From positions 58,538,520-58,602,519 of the forward strand of contig OX578153.1 in the NCBI GenBank assembly GCA_951213105.1: DNA of 64,000 nucleotides. The letters are read 5' to 3'. Of this stretch, positions 38,701 through 50,629 are shown in pieces. Under the pieces are notes generated by a model. That model searched no databases. It saw only the letters and a list, made by a program, of their open reading frames with translations, and was not told the origin of the DNA. The first letter of the stretch is position 1. The number at the start of each line of letters is the position of its first letter. Source of the DNA: Amaurobius ferox. Its lineage: Eukaryota > Arthropoda > Arachnida > Araneae > Amaurobiidae. The position numbers and the translations under genes are program-made.

Positions 38701-39003
38701 TCACCATGGTAACACTCCTGGAGCCGATACCTTCCTGAAGCATAATCTCCGCGTGACTGTCAAGCAAAAGACATAAACGAGGTGTGAAAATAGAAGCTAC
38801 GTGTATATTCAAAGGATACAGATGGAGTGAAAAATCAAAGAAAGAATATCATTACATTAAGAAATGAAGGTCCTGTGAACACAACATCTATGTTTCCAAT
38901 ACGAATCAATAGTTCGTAGAAAGATGCGTAAATAGTCATATCAGTATATACGTTGCCAACAAAATTCATGTTATATCGATGTCGCCAAAATCTGTATAAA
39001 ATG

Positions 39004-39898
<895 letters not shown>

Positions 39899-41464: not shown

Positions 41465-41753
41465 TCTGATGTGGGCAGCACATGACTTTCCCTGCAGACT
41501 TAAATTCATATTTTCTTTATTTCTTTAATAATTCATTAGATTGAGTTTAATTGCGCCAAATAACACTTAATTTGCATTTTTAATTCAATTTTTGTTTTTA
41601 TTTGGTAATTGGACATTTTTTCGGTAGCGGCGTAACAAAAATGCAAGAAATCTCAAATATCTTAAGAATGGTTAGTCCTAAAGTACAATGGAGTGTGTTA
41701 TATTCTTTTCCTCGTCAAAAATTGCACATAAAACAAGAATTTAATTGATACAC
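41465..41753 (+). mobile_element. Family A copy A8, left part
   Basis: It starts TCTGATGTGGGCAGCACATG plus ACTTTCCCTGCAG and is interrupted after TTTAATTGATACAC by the LTR element. The rest resumes at 48036. Confidence 0.85.
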
Positions 41754-42556
41754 TGTTGTGAAATGCTTGACCTCGTTTAATATTTATTTTATGTCAAAAT
41801 TTAACTTCCCGCAGTTTCTAATTCACTTTCGATTCTAAAACTTGTTCTCAGAAAATTATTCCAAATTGATAAAGCGCCATTTCTGTATTCGGCCCTTTTG
41901 GATATTTCCCGCCAGTTCCGGCAAACCTTGGTGTAGGGTTTTGTCCCGCGCTTTAGTACATGTACTTCGCATTCGCATTTCATATTCTTTAACATTGGAA
42001 CTCTTTTTATTTGCGTCATGAACGCGTAATAACATTAAAGATGCTTAAGTCTGTTTTCGGTAAATAGTTTTAATTGGCGATGTGACGCGGACGGGGTAGG
42101 TCGTGCTTTGCCTACGGAGGCAAAAGAATGAGAATTCTAAAGTTCCATGATATTCTAAATTAAATTAAATGTAATTAAAAGATTTTAACAAGCAGATTTA
42201 ATTCAGTGGTGAGATGATATGTGGAAAGATATTTAATTGAAATATGATTATTGAAGATTTTGTCAACTACTTTGGTTTTCGACATCAAGTTGTTTGTTCC
42301 TGTTTAAAGTAAATTATGCTCGAGATGAATAAAGTTATTTAAGTTCAAAGGCCAAGATTGTTCGTCTCATTCTTCAAATGCTTTAGTCACCAGCAGTCCG
42401 AGATACTCGTCGAGTGTGTTTTCCTCATCGACCACCTCCAGAACAGAATACACAACGCAATGAAATTCAGTCGTGCTTCATCACCACCCAACGACCACTA
42501 CCGCTCAGTGCCGCTTCCCGTTCCACAACAAATGATGACCGCGACAGCTTATAACA
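41754..42556 (+). repeat. 5' LTR (803 bp)
   Basis: It begins TGTTGTGAAATGCTTGACC and ends GCTTATAACA. It carries an AATAAA at 42328-42333. Compared with the 3' LTR it has an extra TT in the AAGTTATTTAAG stretch and three base differences. The 72-codon minus-strand ORF found in both LTRs is probably chance. Confidence 0.93.
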
Positions 42557-42558
42557 AA

Positions 42559-42573
42559 TGGTGCCGTAACATC
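42559..42573 (+). promoter_or_regulatory. Candidate primer binding site
   Basis: TGGTGCCGTAACATC lies two bases after the LTR end. The leading TGG pairs with a tRNA CCA end. The tRNA would have to end in a GTTACGGCACCA-type sequence; I could not assign which one. Confidence 0.6.
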
Positions 42574-42976
42574 AGAGTCTGCAAGAATGACTCTTACGAT
42601 CCTGTGGTGTGCCATGAATGCCTACACCAGCTGTGTTAATCCTACGTTGACATCGGGAGGTCGATTCCCGAGTTGGCAAAGTGAATTTATTTTTTTTAGC
42701 TTTAAAAGTGGAATGCATCTGTGAGTTGAAAAGTGGTAAAAGAGAGTGAAATTTATTGTTTAAAATAAAATGAAATATGTCTTATTGTCAATTATACAAA
42801 TTTAAGGATGTAGTTAATACCTGTAGAAAGGTAAGTCTTGAAAAGCTGGAAAAAATGGTATAGTTGAAAATTTAAATAATATGCTTGTTATACTTGAATA
42901 ATTCTTTTTGCTCATTCATTATTGAAATTTTTGTATTGAATTTATGTTTATTATTGATATTGTATACATCTAAAAA

Positions 42977-45900
42977 ATGTCAGCAAACATAACTAGTGCT
43001 TTAAGTTTAATCCCTACATTTGGTGGAGCAGTCGGGGAATCCTTTTCTGAATTTATTACCAAACTTAATAACACTGCCAATTTCTTCCAATGGAAGGAGG
43101 AAGAGAAAATTTTTGCTTTGAATACCAAACTAACATCGCAAGCAGCAATCGCCCTTAGGCTGAATACCGGCGAAAACTTTGAACAAATTGTTAAAAATCT
43201 ATCCTTGAGATTTAGCACTGGTGTATCACTTGCAAACCATTGGCAAAGGTTGAACAACATCGATTGCAATACACATGATATTTTGATTTTTTTTAACAAC
43301 ATGGAAATAACATTTGGGGAATGTTTCCCAACCAAAGATATTGAAAACATTCGCGACACAATCTTGTTGTCTATTACGATAGATAAACTTCCACCGCACA
43401 TCAAAAGAGCTGTCCTGGCTAACGATCCAAAAACTTACGCAGAAGCGAAAAGAACTGCCATTCTTGAGCACAATGCTTGGCTCGCCATAACTCCCCAGCC
43501 CAGCGAAATGCCTGCAATTGCAAACACGCTGCAGTCACCTGAAATGCAACAAATACAAAGTAAAATTGATTTTTTGGAAGAGGAATTACTAAAATTCAAA
43601 TTGGAAAATGAAAATTTAGAAAATTGGAGAAAAATTCCAGAGTGTTATTCATGTGGCAAAAAAGGCCATATTCAAAGAAATTGTTTTTTTAGAGAAGATT
43701 TTGGACAAGAGCGGCAAATAACACAGAAACTGAAATCTAATAACCGCCAGAATAAAAGATTCAGACAATTTAATCAGGAAAGTAGAAGGAATGACAACCT
43801 TGAACAACATCCCATTGAAAATCCTTCATATCCTGCATACAATCCAAAAATTAGGGACACAATTGTAACATCACTGACTGATGAAAATTTAGGATCCTTA
43901 GAACCGGTTAGAAATAATATTGGAAATACTTTGGTTACAATAGGTGAACAAGTGATCCCTAGTAAAACACCCATCGTAAATACTTCCATTTTTGGGACAA
44001 ATGTTCCACTCCTTGTTGACACTGGAGCATGCCTTAGCTTAATATCAAGGGACATTTTGAAACAAATTCCTTTTAAAGTCCAAATAAACCCAGCTCAATT
44101 GACTGTATCACTTGTTACAGGAGACTTTATGCAACTAACTGAAAAAGTCACACTCCCTACCATCATAAATGGAGTTGAATACAAAATTACATATCATTTG
44201 GTTAATAATTTAAAATCTCAAAATTATAAAGGAATCCTAGGGATTGACTTTCTTTCTTGCCAAAATTTTATGATACATTGTAATAAGGGAACAATTGAAA
44301 ATAATGCATCTAATTTATCAGCAATCCCTAGAAGAGAAGTTCCAAAAATTGTACAATGGGAAGATCAATATAATAAAAAAGTAATCCCTGAATCTCAAGA
44401 AATTATTAAACAAAAAGAAGATAGAATAAAAAGTTTAGAAAACCTACATCTGGCAAACAAGAAAAGAATTGATGAGGGAAATAAAAGATGGATTGAATTA
44501 GCAAACTCTTATGAAAAAGAAATATATGACTTAAAAAACTATTGTAAAGGATTAGAAAATGACAATCATGAACTTTCTCAAAATTTAAAGGCAGCTTGCC
44601 AAGATGTTAACTTTTTGGAAAACAAACTTTCAAATTTCAAACAAAATTGTTTTCAGTCATATAAAAATAACAGAAGGAACAACCATCAAAGATTTAACAG
44701 AAATTTAAGAAATCAGAATCGAAGTAAATCCTTTCATAATACCCAATATGGAGTGAAACCATCTTATCCTCCATTTCAACAACAGGAAAGTAGCTATGGC
44801 ACAAATAGATTTCGCAATGAGTTTCATCATCAAAATCCCATAAATCCAAATATAATACAAGGTCAACAGATAAAAGAAAAATTTGAAAAAGCCTTCAATT
44901 CAATCAACAATCAGAAATCTCCCAGAGCTGACATTGATATTTGTAAACAAGTTGCACAAAGTAATAATCAAAATTTCCATAATTTAGATCTGAGAGTACA
45001 ACAAAATTCTAATCCTGAAAATAACAAAATGCAACAAATGTCACAACCTTGTATGGATAAATTTAAAAGTGAAGAAAAAGAAAATATAGATGAATCCGTA
45101 GAGTCAGATGACTTATATGAAAATCAACCATCTCATGCAGATCAAATGCAACTTTTAAAAGATTTTGAAAAAATTACTGTACAAATTTTAGAGGTACATA
45201 AGAAAACACAGAGCATGTATGATACCCAAGACTTTAAATCAATTCCACATATTTTGGAAGAGGTAACTCAACTTTTGTGCACACTAGATGCCCTTCAGTT
45301 ACATGATAATCAATTTGTAAGACAACATAGAAGATCTCACATAGAACGATTAAATGCTATAGCAGATGATCTTCAAAACACACTAGAGGAACAAAATATG
45401 GCAATTTCAAAGGAAGAAAAAGTCACTAGTCCTCTAAATGCTATTAGCATCTGTACTGATAAGGTGAATAATGCATCTAACTGCAAGGAAAAAAATGCTC
45501 TGATACCAATTGAGGAAATACAGAAAATCATAAAGGAACAGAAAACTGACCCTCATTGCATAAAAATTCGAAGAGCTGTGGAGGAAGGTAGTCAACCTCC
45601 AGCATATAAACATATAAATTTTCTTATACACAATGAGGCTCTTTATGCTAAAAACAAGAGGCATAACCATGTTCAGAAATCATTCGCACAGGAAAGATTA
45701 GTAGCTCCAAATTCGTGTATACCTACATTATACAGGTTATTTAACACATCCACAAATTCAACCCGATGTGAAATGTCAAAAATTATGTCAGATATCAAAA
45801 GAAACTTTTTTGTGCCAAATTTAAAAAAAGGTATGATAAATCTAATATCCAGTTGCGACGTTGAAAGAAAATGTGTGAAACCCAGAAACGTGAAAGTAAA

Positions 45901-46174
45901 CAATTTGCAGAAAATACATAATCAGGAGTTGACTGGAAGTTCACACTGGTGCCAAAATCAAATGATTGACTATTCCAAAGTCAGAGAGGCACAGAATTTT
46001 CGTGAAAAACCGAAATCCAATATTTTCAGAGGCACTCCCCAACCGCAAGAGTGGAGATACCCCAAGGCCTCATCTGTGGCAAAACAGCCCAGAATACAAT
46101 CGTATGTGCAGAGAATGTCAACAGCGCAACCATCCCAGCTGAAACCTCTCACATTCACCAACGACAAATATTAA
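42977..46174 (+). CDS. Gag-protease polyprotein with probable BAG domain
   Basis: The ORF is 1065 residues. The start is fixed by an in-frame TAA just upstream (42971). Residues about 10-170 fit a retrotransposon Gag capsid-like region. C223, C226, H231 and C236 form a CX2CX4HX4C nucleic-acid-binding knuckle. About 325-430 is an aspartic protease with DTGA at 348-351 and the GILGIDFL flap-side motif at 419-426, both intact. About 460-560 is charged coiled coil, and 560-700 is Asn/Gln-rich and disordered-looking. Residues 729-804 fit a BAG domain, which binds the Hsp70 nucleotide-binding domain. Residues 842-966 resemble the N-terminal zinc-binding part of Ty3/Gypsy integrase. The two His are lost there and the Cys pair is spaced CX5C (960, 966). 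No RT, RNase H or DDE core is present. It would act as a structural, self-cleaving protein and needs enzymes from another element. It is intact, uninterrupted and young. Confidence 0.92.
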   Translation: MSANITSALSLIPTFGGAVGESFSEFITKLNNTANFFQWKEEEKIFALNTKLTSQAAIALRLNTGENFEQIVKNLSLRFSTGVSLANHWQRLNNIDCNTHDILIFFNNMEITFGECFPTKDIENIRDTILLSITIDKLPPHIKRAVLANDPKTYAEAKRTAILEHNAWLAITPQPSEMPAIANTLQSPEMQQIQSKIDFLEEELLKFKLENENLENWRKIPECYSCGKKGHIQRNCFFREDFGQERQITQKLKSNNRQNKRFRQFNQESRRNDNLEQHPIENPSYPAYNPKIRDTIVTSLTDENLGSLEPVRNNIGNTLVTIGEQVIPSKTPIVNTSIFGTNVPLLVDTGACLSLISRDILKQIPFKVQINPAQLTVSLVTGDFMQLTEKVTLPTIINGVEYKITYHLVNNLKSQNYKGILGIDFLSCQNFMIHCNKGTIENNASNLSAIPRREVPKIVQWEDQYNKKVIPESQEIIKQKEDRIKSLENLHLANKKRIDEGNKRWIELANSYEKEIYDLKNYCKGLENDNHELSQNLKAACQDVNFLENKLSNFKQNCFQSYKNNRRNNHQRFNRNLRNQNRSKSFHNTQYGVKPSYPPFQQQESSYGTNRFRNEFHHQNPINPNIIQGQQIKEKFEKAFNSINNQKSPRADIDICKQVAQSNNQNFHNLDLRVQQNSNPENNKMQQMSQPCMDKFKSEEKENIDESVESDDLYENQPSHADQMQLLKDFEKITVQILEVHKKTQSMYDTQDFKSIPHILEEVTQLLCTLDALQLHDNQFVRQHRRSHIERLNAIADDLQNTLEEQNMAISKEEKVTSPLNAISICTDKVNNASNCKEKNALIPIEEIQKIIKEQKTDPHCIKIRRAVEEGSQPPAYKHINFLIHNEALYAKNKRHNHVQKSFAQERLVAPNSCIPTLYRLFNTSTNSTRCEMSKIMSDIKRNFFVPNLKKGMINLISSCDVERKCVKPRNVKVNNLQKIHNQELTGSSHWCQNQMIDYSKVREAQNFREKPKSNIFRGTPQPQEWRYPKASSVAKQPRIQSYVQRMSTAQPSQLKPLTFTNDKY
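45161..45388 (+). other. BAG-like domain segment of the polyprotein
   Basis: Residues 729-804 align without gaps, over about 45 residues, to the second and third helices of BAG3-type domains as I know the family. Shared positions include I759, E761/E762, L767, L770-D771, V781-R782, R785-R786 and I789. The first helix keeps the hydrophobic spacing (I733, I737, V740). The family's conserved helix-3 Gln is Asn here (N793). BAG domains are Hsp70 nucleotide-exchange factors. I rely on memory of the consensus, not a search. Confidence 0.72.
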
Positions 46175-47234
46175 AAAGGAAATGATTCAAAAATTTTTTT
46201 TGTATATGTATATTTTTTTTAAAGGAAAAAATGAGTTAATTTTTTTGTTTATTTTGGAATAGGAAATTGAAAATAATTTTATTAAAGTAAAGAATTTTTT
46301 TTTGTATAAAGGTTTAAATTGAATTTTTTTTTGTGAAAAGTGGATTTTTTTTTGAGGAAGAATTATATTTTTTCATGGAGTTATAAAAGAACTTTCACAT
46401 TTTTTTAGGAAGTCTGATTTCAGCGAGTACTCGCACTTATTGAACTTTGACCACAGTCAAAAAATTTTTTTTCAAATAAAATATGTTGTATTGTTTACGC
46501 GCGCATATAATCTGTTTATTTATTTTTGTGATCACAAATTTTTTTTAGCTGCAGCTAGTTATTGTAAATGAATATGTATTGTATTAATATGTGATATTGT
46601 ATATAAATTGTAGTAGAAAGATTGAAAAAGAATGTAAGTATTTTGAATATCTGAAGATTAGTACAAGTTTCAAATGGATGTAAGTAATATTGGTATAAAT
46701 GGAATATTGTTACTTGTATTATGTATATATATATTGTCTTTTTTTTAAAGACATCTCACCCGGTTAGGTTATTCTAAAAGTAATTTTTTTTGCGCAATGT
46801 TCATGACAATCTGATATGCAATAGTGATGAGATTTTTAATTTTTGAATTGAAACACATTGAGGAAAATTTGAAAAACTCAACCCCCTCACTTTTATCTAG
46901 CATGTAAGGACTTCTTTTGTGAAAATCAGTGTATGAATGTGAGCGAATGCAGTGTCGTATGAATCAAATTTTTCACATCTGTCCTTGTTTTCGTTGAATT
47001 TCTGGGTTGAGAATCACACATATTTTGGAAATGAGAATTAATTGCATTTGACAATCCTATTTGCATAACAGATCCTAAATTTTTATTTCAAATTTTTTGT
47101 GGCATATTTTTTATCCAGGAAATTGTTGGGTTTTTTTTATGTCACCGCTTTATTTAGGCATATTTGGAATATTTTTTTTTTTTTTGTTAGTCTTTGTTCT
47201 GTACCAGAACAAATCCTCGTTTGCGGCGGGGATA
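46175..47234 (+). other. 3' untranslated interior of the retroelement, T-rich
   Basis: About 1060 bp with many T runs of 8-15 and no ORF of note. It is far too short for the missing RT-RNase H-integrase. It ends in GCGGCGGGGATA next to the 3' LTR. Confidence 0.8.
47222..47234 (+). promoter_or_regulatory. Candidate polypurine tract
   Basis: GGCGGGGATA abuts the 3' LTR, where plus-strand DNA synthesis is primed in LTR elements. It is short and contains C/T, so this is tentative. Confidence 0.45.
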
Positions 47235-48035
47235 TGTTGTGAAATGCTTGACCTCGTTTAATATTTATTTTATGTCAAAATTTAACTTCCCGCAGTTTCT
47301 AATTCACTTTCGATTCTAAAACTTGTTCTCAGAAAATTATTCCAAATTGATAAAGCGCCATTTCTGTATTCGGCCCTTTTGGATATTTCCCGCCAGTTCC
47401 GGCAAACCTTGGTGTAGGGTTTTGTCCCGCGCTTTAGTACATGTACTTCGCATTCGCATTTCATATTCTTTAACATTGGAACTCTTTTTATTTGCGTCAT
47501 GAACGCGTAATAACATTAAAGATGCTTAAGTCTGTTTTCGGTAAATAGTTTTAATTGGCGATGTGACGCGGACGGGGTAGGTCGTGCTTTGCCTACGGAG
47601 GCAAAAGAATGAGAATTCTAAAGTTCCATGATATTCTAAATTAAATTAAATGTGATTAAAAGATTTTAACAAGCAGATTTAATTCAGTGGTGAGATGATA
47701 TGTGGAAAGATATTTAATTGAAATATGATTATTGAAGATTTTGTCAACTACTTTGGTTTTCAACATCAAGTTGTTTGTTCCTGTTTAAAGTAAATTATGC
47801 TCGAGATGAATAAAGTTATAAGTTCAAAGGCCAAGATTGTTCGTCTCATTCTTCAAATGCTTTAGTCACCAGCAGTCCGAGATACTCGTCGAGTGTGTTT
47901 TCCTCATCGACCACCTCCAGAACAGAATACACAACGCAATGAAATTCAGTCGTGCTTCATCACCACCCAGCGACCACTACCGCTCAGTGCCGCTTCCCGT
48001 TCCACAACAAATGATGACCGCGACAGCTTATAACA
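47235..48035 (+). repeat. 3' LTR (801 bp)
   Basis: Nearly identical to the 5' LTR. AATAAA at 47809-47814. It ends TATAACA before the ACAC target duplication. Confidence 0.93.
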
Positions 48036-48708
48036 ACACTTCAGCATACGTAGTCTTTTTTTTTTTTTTTAATTTTGGCGATTTTTGCGGGCCATTTCGT
48101 AAAAAAAGGCAGGTTGTTAGCTTCCGAATCGTACCAAAATCGAATCAGCAGCAAAGTGCCCCACAAGTTACTTATCTACCAAATATTGTGAAATTTGATC
48201 AATTAGTATTTTAGCTATGGTGGATACATGAAATTTTTTAGGGCCATTTTGTAAAAAAATGCAGGTTCTTCTTTTCCGACTCGTATCAAATTCTAATCAA
48301 CACCAGAGAATCCAACAAGTAACTTATCTACAAAATTTTGTCAAATTTGGTAAATTAGTATTTTAGCTAGAGCGCATAAATGAAATTTTTACTGGCCACT
48401 TCGCAAAAAAAGGCTCTGCTTTTACGAATCGCACTAAAATCCAAAGTGACTTTCCTACCAAATTTTATGAAATTTAGTCCATCTAATCCATTTTTTAGAA
48501 TTTAGTCCATTAGTTTTTTAGTTAAGAGTGGATACATACACACACAGACAGACAGACGCACACACACACAGACGTCAGGCTAAAAATAGTTTTTTCGTAT
48601 TTTAGAGGCATCGAAACGTGTAGATCCGTCGAAAACTCCAGTTGCTATTTTCGACATGATTCCAATACTTTCCCTATACATTACCATGTATTACAGGGAA
48701 AGTAAAAA
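48036..48708 (+). mobile_element. Family A copy A8, right part
   Basis: It resumes with TTCAGCATACGTAGTC, which continues the left part exactly as in intact copy A3 (TTTGAGCATACGTAGTT). It contains one extra internal unit with ATTTTAGCTA compared with A4. It ends in the hairpin and GGAAAGTAAAAA, directly followed by A9. Confidence 0.88.
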
Positions 48709-48709
48709 A

Positions 48710-49768
48710 TCTGATGTGGGCAGCACATGACTTTCCCCGCAGACTTACATTCACATTATCTTTATTTTAATTAAATTTAATTCATTTTCATTCAATTTTT
48801 GTTCTCTTTTGGCAACTGGAATTATTTTCAAAATTGGCGTAGAGAAAATACGAAAAAACTAAAATATCTCGGGAACGGCTAGTCCTAGTGTTGTTGTTGT
48901 TACCCAGACCGTCCGACCTACCAGAAAGGTGTAAGGTAACTGTTTGGACGGCCGGGAAGTGCCACCCAATTCAGACCGGAACCCAGTGGGGGAGGCATCC
49001 ACAGGGACCGTACCCTCCTTCCCCTACCACCAACCTCTCGGAAGGACTTTCGGACCCACATGTTTAACGTGATCGTACTCCGCATGAACACGGCGGCAGT
49101 TTTGGCAGTGGCTGGAATCGAACCCGGGCCTACCGAGTGCAACTCCAGCGCGCTAACCAATGGGCTACCGCGCCCCGGCTAGTCCTAGTGTAATGGGGTT
49201 AGTCTTATTTTTTTCTTCGTTAAAAATTACGTATAAAACAAGCATTTAATGGGTATATTTGAGCATACGTAGTTTTTTATTTTAGAATTTGACGATTTTT
49301 GCGGGCTGTTTTGCAAAAAAGGCAAGTTAATTTCTTCCGAATCATACTAAAATCAAATCAGCGCCAGGGTAATCCACAAGCGACTTATCTACTGAATTTT
49401 GTGAAATCCAGTCCATTAGTTTTTCAACTAGAGTGGATACAGGAATTTTTTGCGGGCCATTTTGCAAAAAAAAGGCGGGTACTTTTATTCCGAATCGTAC
49501 TAAAAACTAATCAGCACGAGGGTCATACCCAAGTGACTTACCTACCAAATTTTATGAAATTCGGTCCATTATTTTTTTAGTTAGAGTGGATACATACATT
49601 GCACAGACACAGACAAACAGACACACACACAGACGTCACGCTAAAAATCGTTTTTTCGCATTCTAGAGGTCTCGAAACGTGTAGATCCGTCGAAAACTCG
49701 AGTTGTGATTTTCGGTATGATTCCAATACTTTCCCTATACATTACCACGTATTGCATGGAAAGTAAAA
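48710..49768 (+). mobile_element. Family A copy A9, split by a SINE
   Basis: A head-to-tail tandem with A8 (AGGGAAAGTAAAAAATCTGA junction). Interrupted at 48891-49190 by a SINE plus duplicated target. The remainder is complete to ATTGCATGGAAAGTAAAA. Confidence 0.88.
48891..49175 (-). mobile_element. Full-length tRNA-SINE, tail family T
   Basis: On the minus strand the head is GGGGCGCGGTAGCCCATTGG and the B-box is GGTTCGATTCC; the body and GTT/CAA tail follow. The 15-bp target duplication CGGCTAGTCCTAGTG lies at 48876-48890 and 49176-49190, inside A9. Confidence 0.92.
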
Positions 49769-49857
49769 GTAAGGCAATAAATCTTAAAAATTTATCATCA
49801 TTTGAACAAATAATGACCGATCCATAAAATTTTGAATACTCCTCTACAAACAACGAT

Positions 49858-50629
49858 TTTTACTTCCCCTGCAATACATGGTAATGTATAGGGAAAGTAT
49901 TGGAATCATGCCGAAAATCGCAACTCGAGTTTTCGACGGATCTACACGTTTCGAGACCTCTAGAATACGAAAAAACCATTTTTAGCGTGACGTCTGTGTG
50001 TGTGTCTGTCTGCGTGTCTGTCTGTCAGTGTGTCTGTCTGTCTGTGCAGATTTTGCATCCACTCTAACTAAAATACTAATGGACCGAATTTCACAAAATT
50101 TTGTAGGTAAGTCACTTGTGGGCGGGGCTGGTGCTGATTAGTTTGGGGTACGATTCGGAATAAAAGAACCCGTCTTTTTTGTGAAATGGCCCGCAAAAGT
50201 TTGTATCCACTGTAGCTGAAAAACTAATGGACCGAATTTCACAAAATTCGGTAGATGAGTCACGTATAGGTCACCCTGGTGCTGATTAGATTTTGGTACG
50301 ATTCAGAAAAAAATAACCTGCCTTTTACTGCAAAATGGCCCGCAAAAATTGCCAAAATCTAGAATAAAAAACTACGTATGCTCAAATATATCCATGAAAT
50401 GCTTGTTTATTACGTAATTTTTAACGAAGAAAAGAATAAGATCAATCCCATTACTCTAGAACTAGCCGTTCTCGAGATATTTTAATTTTTTCATATTTTC
50501 TCTACGCCACATTTGAAAATAAGTCCGGTTACCGAATGAGAACGAAAATTGAATTAAAAGTGAAATAAATTGAATAAAAATAAAGAGACCGTAAGTCTGC
50601 ATGGAAAGTTATGCGCTGCCTACATCAGA
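49858..50629 (-). mobile_element. Family A copy A10
   Basis: A full-length minus-strand copy, hairpin at left (TACTTCCCCTGCAATACATG), 5' end at right (GCTGCCTACATCAGA). It has a long GTGT/CTGT tract at 49995-50045. Confidence 0.88.

Follow-up and report, generated by a model that had tools for sequence, protein, structure and literature searches.

A 64,000-nucleotide stretch of the genome of the spider Amaurobius ferox (contig OX578153.1, positions 58,538,520 to 58,602,519; hereafter the window) carries a long terminal repeat (LTR) retroelement of Ty3/gypsy type, whose single open reading frame (ORF) of 1065 residues encodes a BAG domain, the Hsp70 co-chaperone domain, together with Gag and protease. 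This copy is a young, multi-copy, non-autonomous deletion derivative, which has no reverse transcriptase (RT), RNase H or integrase core and retains Gag, protease, a coiled coil and BAG. As the best overall explanation we favour, with a probability of roughly two in three, a BAG-bearing gypsy lineage with a non-autonomous offshoot, in which the domain recruits host Hsp70 for the element.

A BAG domain in the polyprotein

The original prediction placed a BAG domain at residues 729–804, with a fit to the consensus that is gap-free across helices 2 and 3, inside an LTR retroelement polyprotein, and both statements are borne out. Against Pfam BAG (PF02179, cut-off 23.4 bits) the 76-residue segment scores 24.5 bits (E 4e-5) and a 130-residue piece 24.8 bits (profile positions 4–75 of 78); shuffled versions (0 of 4) and the reversed piece gave no BAG match, and helices 2 and 3 align gap-free with both BAG domains of the host. 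A single-sequence AF2 model of the segment is a three-helix bundle (pLDDT 87.9) and its closest solved matches are BAG domains: of the best 14 rows among 989 aligned PDB chains, six are BAG proteins or complexes by title and eight come from the 5aq* Hsp70 screening set; these eight fall within the residue numbers of the 1hx1 BAG1 chain, and we take them to be BAG1. Taken together, the Pfam profile, the fold and the related copies elsewhere in this genome identify residues 729–804 as part of a genuine BAG domain. It stands in one ORF with a CCHC zinc knuckle and a protease, between a pair of LTRs, and it is kept in related elements. The third-position GC content (GC3) along the ORF does not set the BAG segment apart as foreign.

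Autonomous-type relatives carry BAG between RNase H and integrase

The domain had also been thought to take the usual place of RT and RNase H. This turned out to be wrong, as autonomous-type relatives retain both enzymes and have the coiled coil and BAG between RNase H and integrase. Searching the genome (3,564,777,782 bases) recovered these relatives and other copies of the element, as well as a host BAG3-type gene (L001) and a second host BAG gene (L002). With Pfam BAG at E<=0.001 three places were found, namely the two host genes and the L003/L004 locus, an old relative, truncated at its 5' end, that has the coiled coil, BAG, a complete integrase in broken frames, the tail and a related 3' LTR. 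L004 scores 38.3 bits for H2C2, 44.9 for rve, 40.5 for Integrase_p58_C and 31.5 for BAG; no more matches to the window element were seen around it (L005–L007). The L004 integrase, used as a genome query, gave 126 matches, 47 of which (query residues ~21–288) show 77–81% identity, with 19 of the 47 in open frames of 2051–2054 residues.

In L038 and L039 a single open frame contains the last part of RT, followed by RNase H, the coiled coil, the linker and BAG, and the integrase match comes straight after; Pfam gives L039 43.8 bits for RVT_1 (end of the domain), 115.9 for RT_RNaseH and 23.6 for BAG. In a copy on C3, 4,425 bases, divisible into whole codons, separate the start of Gag from the integrase match, and the frame tabulated for this copy has 2054 residues. 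The order in the partner family, pieced together from parts of copies with frames of ~2054 residues, is Gag–protease, RT–RNase H–coiled coil–BAG–integrase. The coiled coil of L039 (901–1500) also gave a match to MIP-T3_C, under the cut-off (20.7 bits).

In all 18 relatives fetched, of which 11 are intact and 7 diverged or broken, the BAG segment lies upstream of integrase. A distant gypsy group, with 31–35% integrase identity, encodes RNase H before the integrase match without the BAG segment in 2/2 copies. When the BAG piece of another copy, L050, served as genome query, 150 of the 222 candidates were scored and all 150 matched at 45–100% identity, the window locus included, although not every place was read individually. 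Nineteen diverse copies, chosen to be stop-free, all match Pfam BAG at E<=0.01. Intermediate BAG-bearing copies (L061–L075) with a stop-free segment are 48–73% identical to L050, which suggests that the BAG lineage comprises several older subfamilies.

A young non-autonomous family

With the whole window protein as query, 43 places were scored out of 10,497 first-look candidates, the window among them. The other 42 are 93–96% identical to the window protein, and 36 of the 43, some of them partial, are stop-free. An LTR pair is present in the flanks of 28 of the 30 fetched copies, with a median identity of 99.9% (lowest 92.6%) over the 329–557 bp seen, and the family has therefore moved recently. 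Pfam BAG was matched (E<=1) in 24/24 non-autonomous copies scanned, and it is the only Pfam family matched by all of these and by all 19 diverse copies.

Since the relatives keep RT/RNase H and integrase around the coiled coil–BAG module, the window family is a deletion derivative. RT/RNase H was lost between residues ~437 and 443, where the match to the autonomous-type copy L060 stops at residue 443 and the match to L039 beyond RNase H picks up near residue 440; the integrase core was lost past ~residue 983. The window copy has no Pfam match to RT or RNase H, and its integrase is a degenerate H2C2 piece alone (Integrase_H2C2, 14.7 bits, under the cut-off of 25.5). Aligned with the whole integrase of L004, this remnant has both H2C2 histidines replaced (N, R) and no catalytic core, and its predicted structure is uninformative (pLDDT 47.5). 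Residues 1–443 are 64% identical to the Gag–protease start of L060, which also contains TGGTGCCGT of the window's stretch resembling a primer-binding site (PBS); we take this stretch to resemble the 3' end of tRNA-His. The missing enzymes, the young LTRs and the related Gag and PBS point to mobilisation in trans, presumably by the partner.

Tandem arrangements occur in both families. Four non-autonomous copies (L010–L013, G000 C8:155428263-155448380) form an array at 5,641-bp spacing, and autonomous-type copies are found three in a row on C8 near 77.14 Mb (8,833-bp spacing) and two in a row on C18 (8,815 bp).

Constraint and interface-type residues

The ratio of nonsynonymous to synonymous divergence (dN/dS) over 27 stop-free copies, three copies with stops having been dropped, is 0.20 overall, 0.12 in Gag, 0.06 in the protease, 0.16 in the coiled coil and 0.43 in the linker. 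It is 0.34 in BAG (bootstrap of 40, 0.17–0.94), 0.52 in the integrase remnant (0.29–1.21) and 0.46 in the tail (0.25–1.06). Between the window and L039 identity amounts to 59% in the coiled coil, 58% in BAG helices 2–3, 38% in the linker and 26% in helix 1; in helices 2–3 the proportion of differing sites is 0.28 for nonsynonymous (pN) and 0.92, which is saturated, for synonymous sites (pS).

In the case of the Hsp70 interface, we take E212, D222 and Q245 as the contact residues of BAG1 and tested them here as E761, D771 and N793. E761, E762 and R785 of helices 2–3 are invariant in 19/19 diverse stop-free copies and D771 is present in 18/19; by alignment, these four are probably interface-type residues of the window BAG. 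R785 aligns with R480 of human BAG3 (numbering taken from P470 in PMC6297355 and from the 1uk5 alignment), and that study reports that binding to Hsp70 is strongly impaired or abolished by the R480A change (PMC6297355).

Synonymous divergence among copies L008–L037 is 0.20 in Gag (42977–43621) vs 0.04–0.09 in the other ORF segments, and this difference suggests that Gag has been exchanged by recombination between subfamilies.

A possible role in Hsp70 recruitment and its alternatives

Hsp70 helps many viruses, and retroelements are usually thought to depend on host co-chaperones. A BAG domain in the polyprotein suggests that this element brings its own handle on the protein-folding machinery of the cell. 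Recruitment of Hsp70 is the best-supported function that we can propose for it. In our model, a coiled coil and a BAG3/BAG4-like BAG domain would have entered a Ty3/gypsy lineage between RNase H and integrase, an acquisition suggested by the absence of the module from the distant gypsy group. The domain would bind the nucleotide-binding domain of host Hsp70/Hsc70 and promote nucleotide exchange, so that the chaperone is drawn to the element's own polyprotein and clients are released there; the coiled coil may render this recruitment multivalent. That the domain binds Hsp70, that it promotes exchange, and that it acts during particle assembly or disassembly are all inferred. In the offshoot, RT and integrase would presumably come in trans from the autonomous-type partner, with the coiled coil–BAG module worth retaining in cis. 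The best clue to function is the loss of the enzymes flanking the module, which itself has stayed open and under constraint; this would be expected of a module that serves in cis while the enzymes are supplied in trans. Somewhat more tentatively, at a little under even odds, a recently spreading LTR lineage may encode its own Hsp70 nucleotide-exchange domain, kept by an offshoot that has lost all polymerising and integrating enzymes and in which self-supplied chaperone recruitment would be a step required in cis.

The BAG assignment itself has several results to contend with, which would fit an unrelated three-helix bundle or coiled coil scoring as BAG by chance. Within the whole 1065-residue protein the Pfam score falls to 21.4 bits (E 3.5e-4, residues 726–799), under the cut-off, and the window copy is not among the matches of the genome-wide Pfam search at E<=0.001. 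Against the sequences of solved structures, a 143-residue piece finds no BAG at E<=10 and the 76-residue segment finds BAG4 at E 0.49, ranked after designed bundles; further PDB comparisons likewise rank designed helix bundles close to BAG or ahead of it. A profile built from only the two host BAG domains gives the whole window ORF 6.7 bits, a score exceeded by 7 of 2000 shuffles; with the C21 host BAG alone as query, 2 of 2000 shuffles outscore the window ORF, and with the C3 host BAG alone the window is absent among the best 8 rows. However, BAG is the sole Pfam family common to all 24 and all 19 scanned members, and other copies score clearly higher (31.5 bits in L004, 30.6 in L050). The same two-host profile gives L004 25.2 bits, with 8.7 for the best of 2000 shuffles, and the comparison of element with host BAG profiles yields P 1.6e-5 over 52 gap-free columns (4.3e-5 with a larger alignment). 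Chance resemblance is thus largely refuted and we consider it very improbable.

If the domain is derived from BAG, it might now serve as a structural spacer or oligomerisation module with the coiled coil that adjoins it and no longer bind Hsp70. The drift of helix 1, the residues at the position of BAG3 R477 (R in 12, K in 6 and G in 1 of the 19 diverse copies) and the replacement of the VQ-motif glutamine, which is N793 in the window and N in 17/19, would agree with such a change and speak against Hsp70 recruitment. A pure spacer, though, would keep mainly core residues, whereas none of the 19 copies departs from the arginine equivalent to R480 or from the E761/E762 pair, and we regard this alternative as unlikely. 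Hsp70 binding could also be put to another use: acting as a decoy or trap, the segment would bind Hsp70 or be a competitor of host BAG3 and in this way let particles or polyprotein evade BAG3-guided clearance, rather than help assembly. The element domains appear nearest to the BAG3/BAG4 type, a BAG3-type gene is present in the host, and host BAG3 is reported to restrict VP40-mediated egress of filoviruses (PMC5226679). Nothing in the present data separates a decoy from an assembly role; the general Pfam scan of the window protein, in which no search was aimed at them, showed no match to the other BAG3 parts (WW, IPV motifs). We judge a decoy to be distinctly improbable. Under recruitment of Hsp70 for the element, the reading we prefer, the domain would offer a genetic means of asking directly when and where a retroelement relies on Hsp70. 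The deletion derivative is a natural experiment, in which the parts retained in cis (Gag, protease, coiled coil–BAG) are separated from those that can be supplied in trans (RT, integrase).

Source of the domain and relation to known systems

A captured host BAG-family sequence with BAG3-like spacing had been proposed, and this holds in part. The host genes L001 and L002 carry the domain in long uninterrupted frames (ORFs of 512 and 471 residues), and L001 is of BAG3 type by its best solved match (1uk5, E 2.4e-15; BAG4 next). Against solved structures, an element-BAG profile finds BAG4, BAG4 and BAG3 first, and a profile of 19 element sequences has BAG4, BAG4, BAG3 and BAG5 at ranks 2–5; in this ranking, made by sequence comparison, BAG4 and BAG3 are thus top among BAG chains and BAG5 is lower. 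The BAG3/BAG4 type is therefore probably the closest, and capture from a BAG3-type host gene would be the simplest reading. The element domain shares with BAG3 and BAG4 (PF02179; BAG3, 1uk5; BAG4, 1m62 and 1m7k; host, L001 and L002) the three-helix bundle with gap-free helices 2–3, the E/D/R interface-type residues and the LD-x9-VR spacing. It differs from them in lying within a retroelement polyprotein, in its weaker score, in having N for Q in the VQ motif and in a divergent helix 1.

The element resembles Ty3/gypsy elements in its LTRs, 4-bp target duplication, CCHC knuckle and protease, and the partner-family pieces add RT, RNase H, H2C2, the rve core and Integrase_p58_C, with RNase H ahead of integrase. 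What sets the lineage apart from them is an addition of ~400 residues (coiled coil, linker, BAG) that separates RNase H from integrase, and the window family in turn is missing RT, RNase H and the integrase core. Non-autonomous LTR elements that carry gag (TR-GAG-like) have an intact Gag ORF and young LTRs and presumably depend on partner enzymes; the window family differs from them in retaining the protease and the coiled coil–BAG module. Parts of the chaperone system are carried by viruses, as in the J domain of polyomavirus T antigen and the Hsp70 homologue of closteroviruses, which are likewise cases of a mobile or viral genome encoding a piece of the Hsp70 system. These belong to other virus groups, whereas the present domain lies inside a retroelement polyprotein. 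For the giant virus Fadolivirus, a BAG-domain protein has been reported (PMC8490762).

Accessory domains in LTR elements are known. Reported examples are bdelloid LTR families with a dUTPase between protease and RT (PMC5408684) and elements with chromodomain, DnaQ-like exonuclease or DNA methylase domains (PMC6338049); in these elements, as here, a foreign domain is carried and kept through a lineage. The domains named here are enzymes or chromatin readers, while BAG is a co-chaperone domain. It adds a non-enzymatic, proteostasis-related member to the short list of host domains in LTR elements. No retroelement with a BAG domain, and no report of a Ty3/gypsy element with a co-chaperone domain, was found in searches of the open-access literature, which were partly limited to best-ranked results. 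Relatives were also absent from 5.8 billion proteins, viral contigs and prokaryote genome contigs, a negative that carries little weight because these sets seem to hold few animal sequences.

Layout of the window element

The features of the element are collected in the table.

Table. Features of the retroelement in the window (positions in the window; residues of the 1065-residue protein)
Feature	Position	Strand	Basis
Target-site duplication ACAC, left copy	41750..41753	none	Read from sequence; same 4 bp as 48036-48039
5' LTR, 803 bp, TG...CA	41754..42556	+	blastn of LTR regions; ends checked by reading
PBS-like stretch TGGTGCCGTAAC..., 2 bases past 5' LTR	42559..42578	+	Read from sequence
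Single ORF, 1065 residues: Gag-protease-coiled coil-linker-BAG-integrase remnant-tail	42977..46174	+	ORF, uninterrupted
Gag, residues 1-215	42977..43621	+	Likeness to autonomous-type Gag-protease
CCHC zinc knuckle, residues 222-236	43640..43684	+	Pfam zf-CCHC
Retropepsin-type protease, residues 335-427	43979..44257	+	Pfam gag-asp_proteas
Approximate join, residues ~437-443; RT/RNase H of autonomous-type relatives absent	44285..44305	+	Alignments to L060, L039
Coiled-coil segment, residues 468-562	44378..44662	+	59% identity to L039; several weak sub-cut-off coiled-coil Pfam matches
N/Q/R-rich linker with short acidic stretch	44663..45133	+	38% identity to L039 over residues 563-700
BAG domain, helices at residues 720-750, 753-772, 779-812	45134..45412	+	Pfam, AF2 model, PDB match, alignments
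Stretch of the original prediction, residues 729-804	45161..45388	+	Translates stop-free
Integrase N-terminal (H2C2) remnant, residues 837-983	45485..45925	+	Pfam sub-cut-off; alignment to L004
C-terminal tail, fused directly to integrase remnant	45926..46171	+	27.5% identity over 69 residues to post-integrase tail of L004
Polypurine-tract-like GCGGCGGGGATA, just 5' of 3' LTR	47223..47234	+	Read from sequence
3' LTR	47235..48035	+	blastn of LTR regions; reading of ends
Target-site duplication ACAC, right copy	48036..48039	none	Read from sequence

The LTR pair, target duplication, PBS- and polypurine-tract-like stretches, CCHC knuckle and protease are the structural marks of Ty3/gypsy present in the window, and the two LTRs are identical at 799 of 804 positions over the stretch aligned by blastn. 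Gag residues 1–215 have no Pfam match of their own. The zf-CCHC match scores 20.8 bits in the whole protein and 22.6 in a piece (cut-off 20.8), and gag-asp_proteas 29.9 bits on a piece (cut-off 28.2) and 27 bits in the whole protein. The coiled-coil label is read from the likeness to L039 and the sub-cut-off Pfam matches. Rfam and tRNA scans of the window gave no matches. At 48059–50468, adjoining the 3' LTR, direct and inverted repeats of ~130–180 nucleotides that are 72–92% alike lie clustered together, and 38940–39318 is occupied by a long TA-rich simple repeat that shows inverted symmetry and whose copies are mostly spaced by 8 bp.
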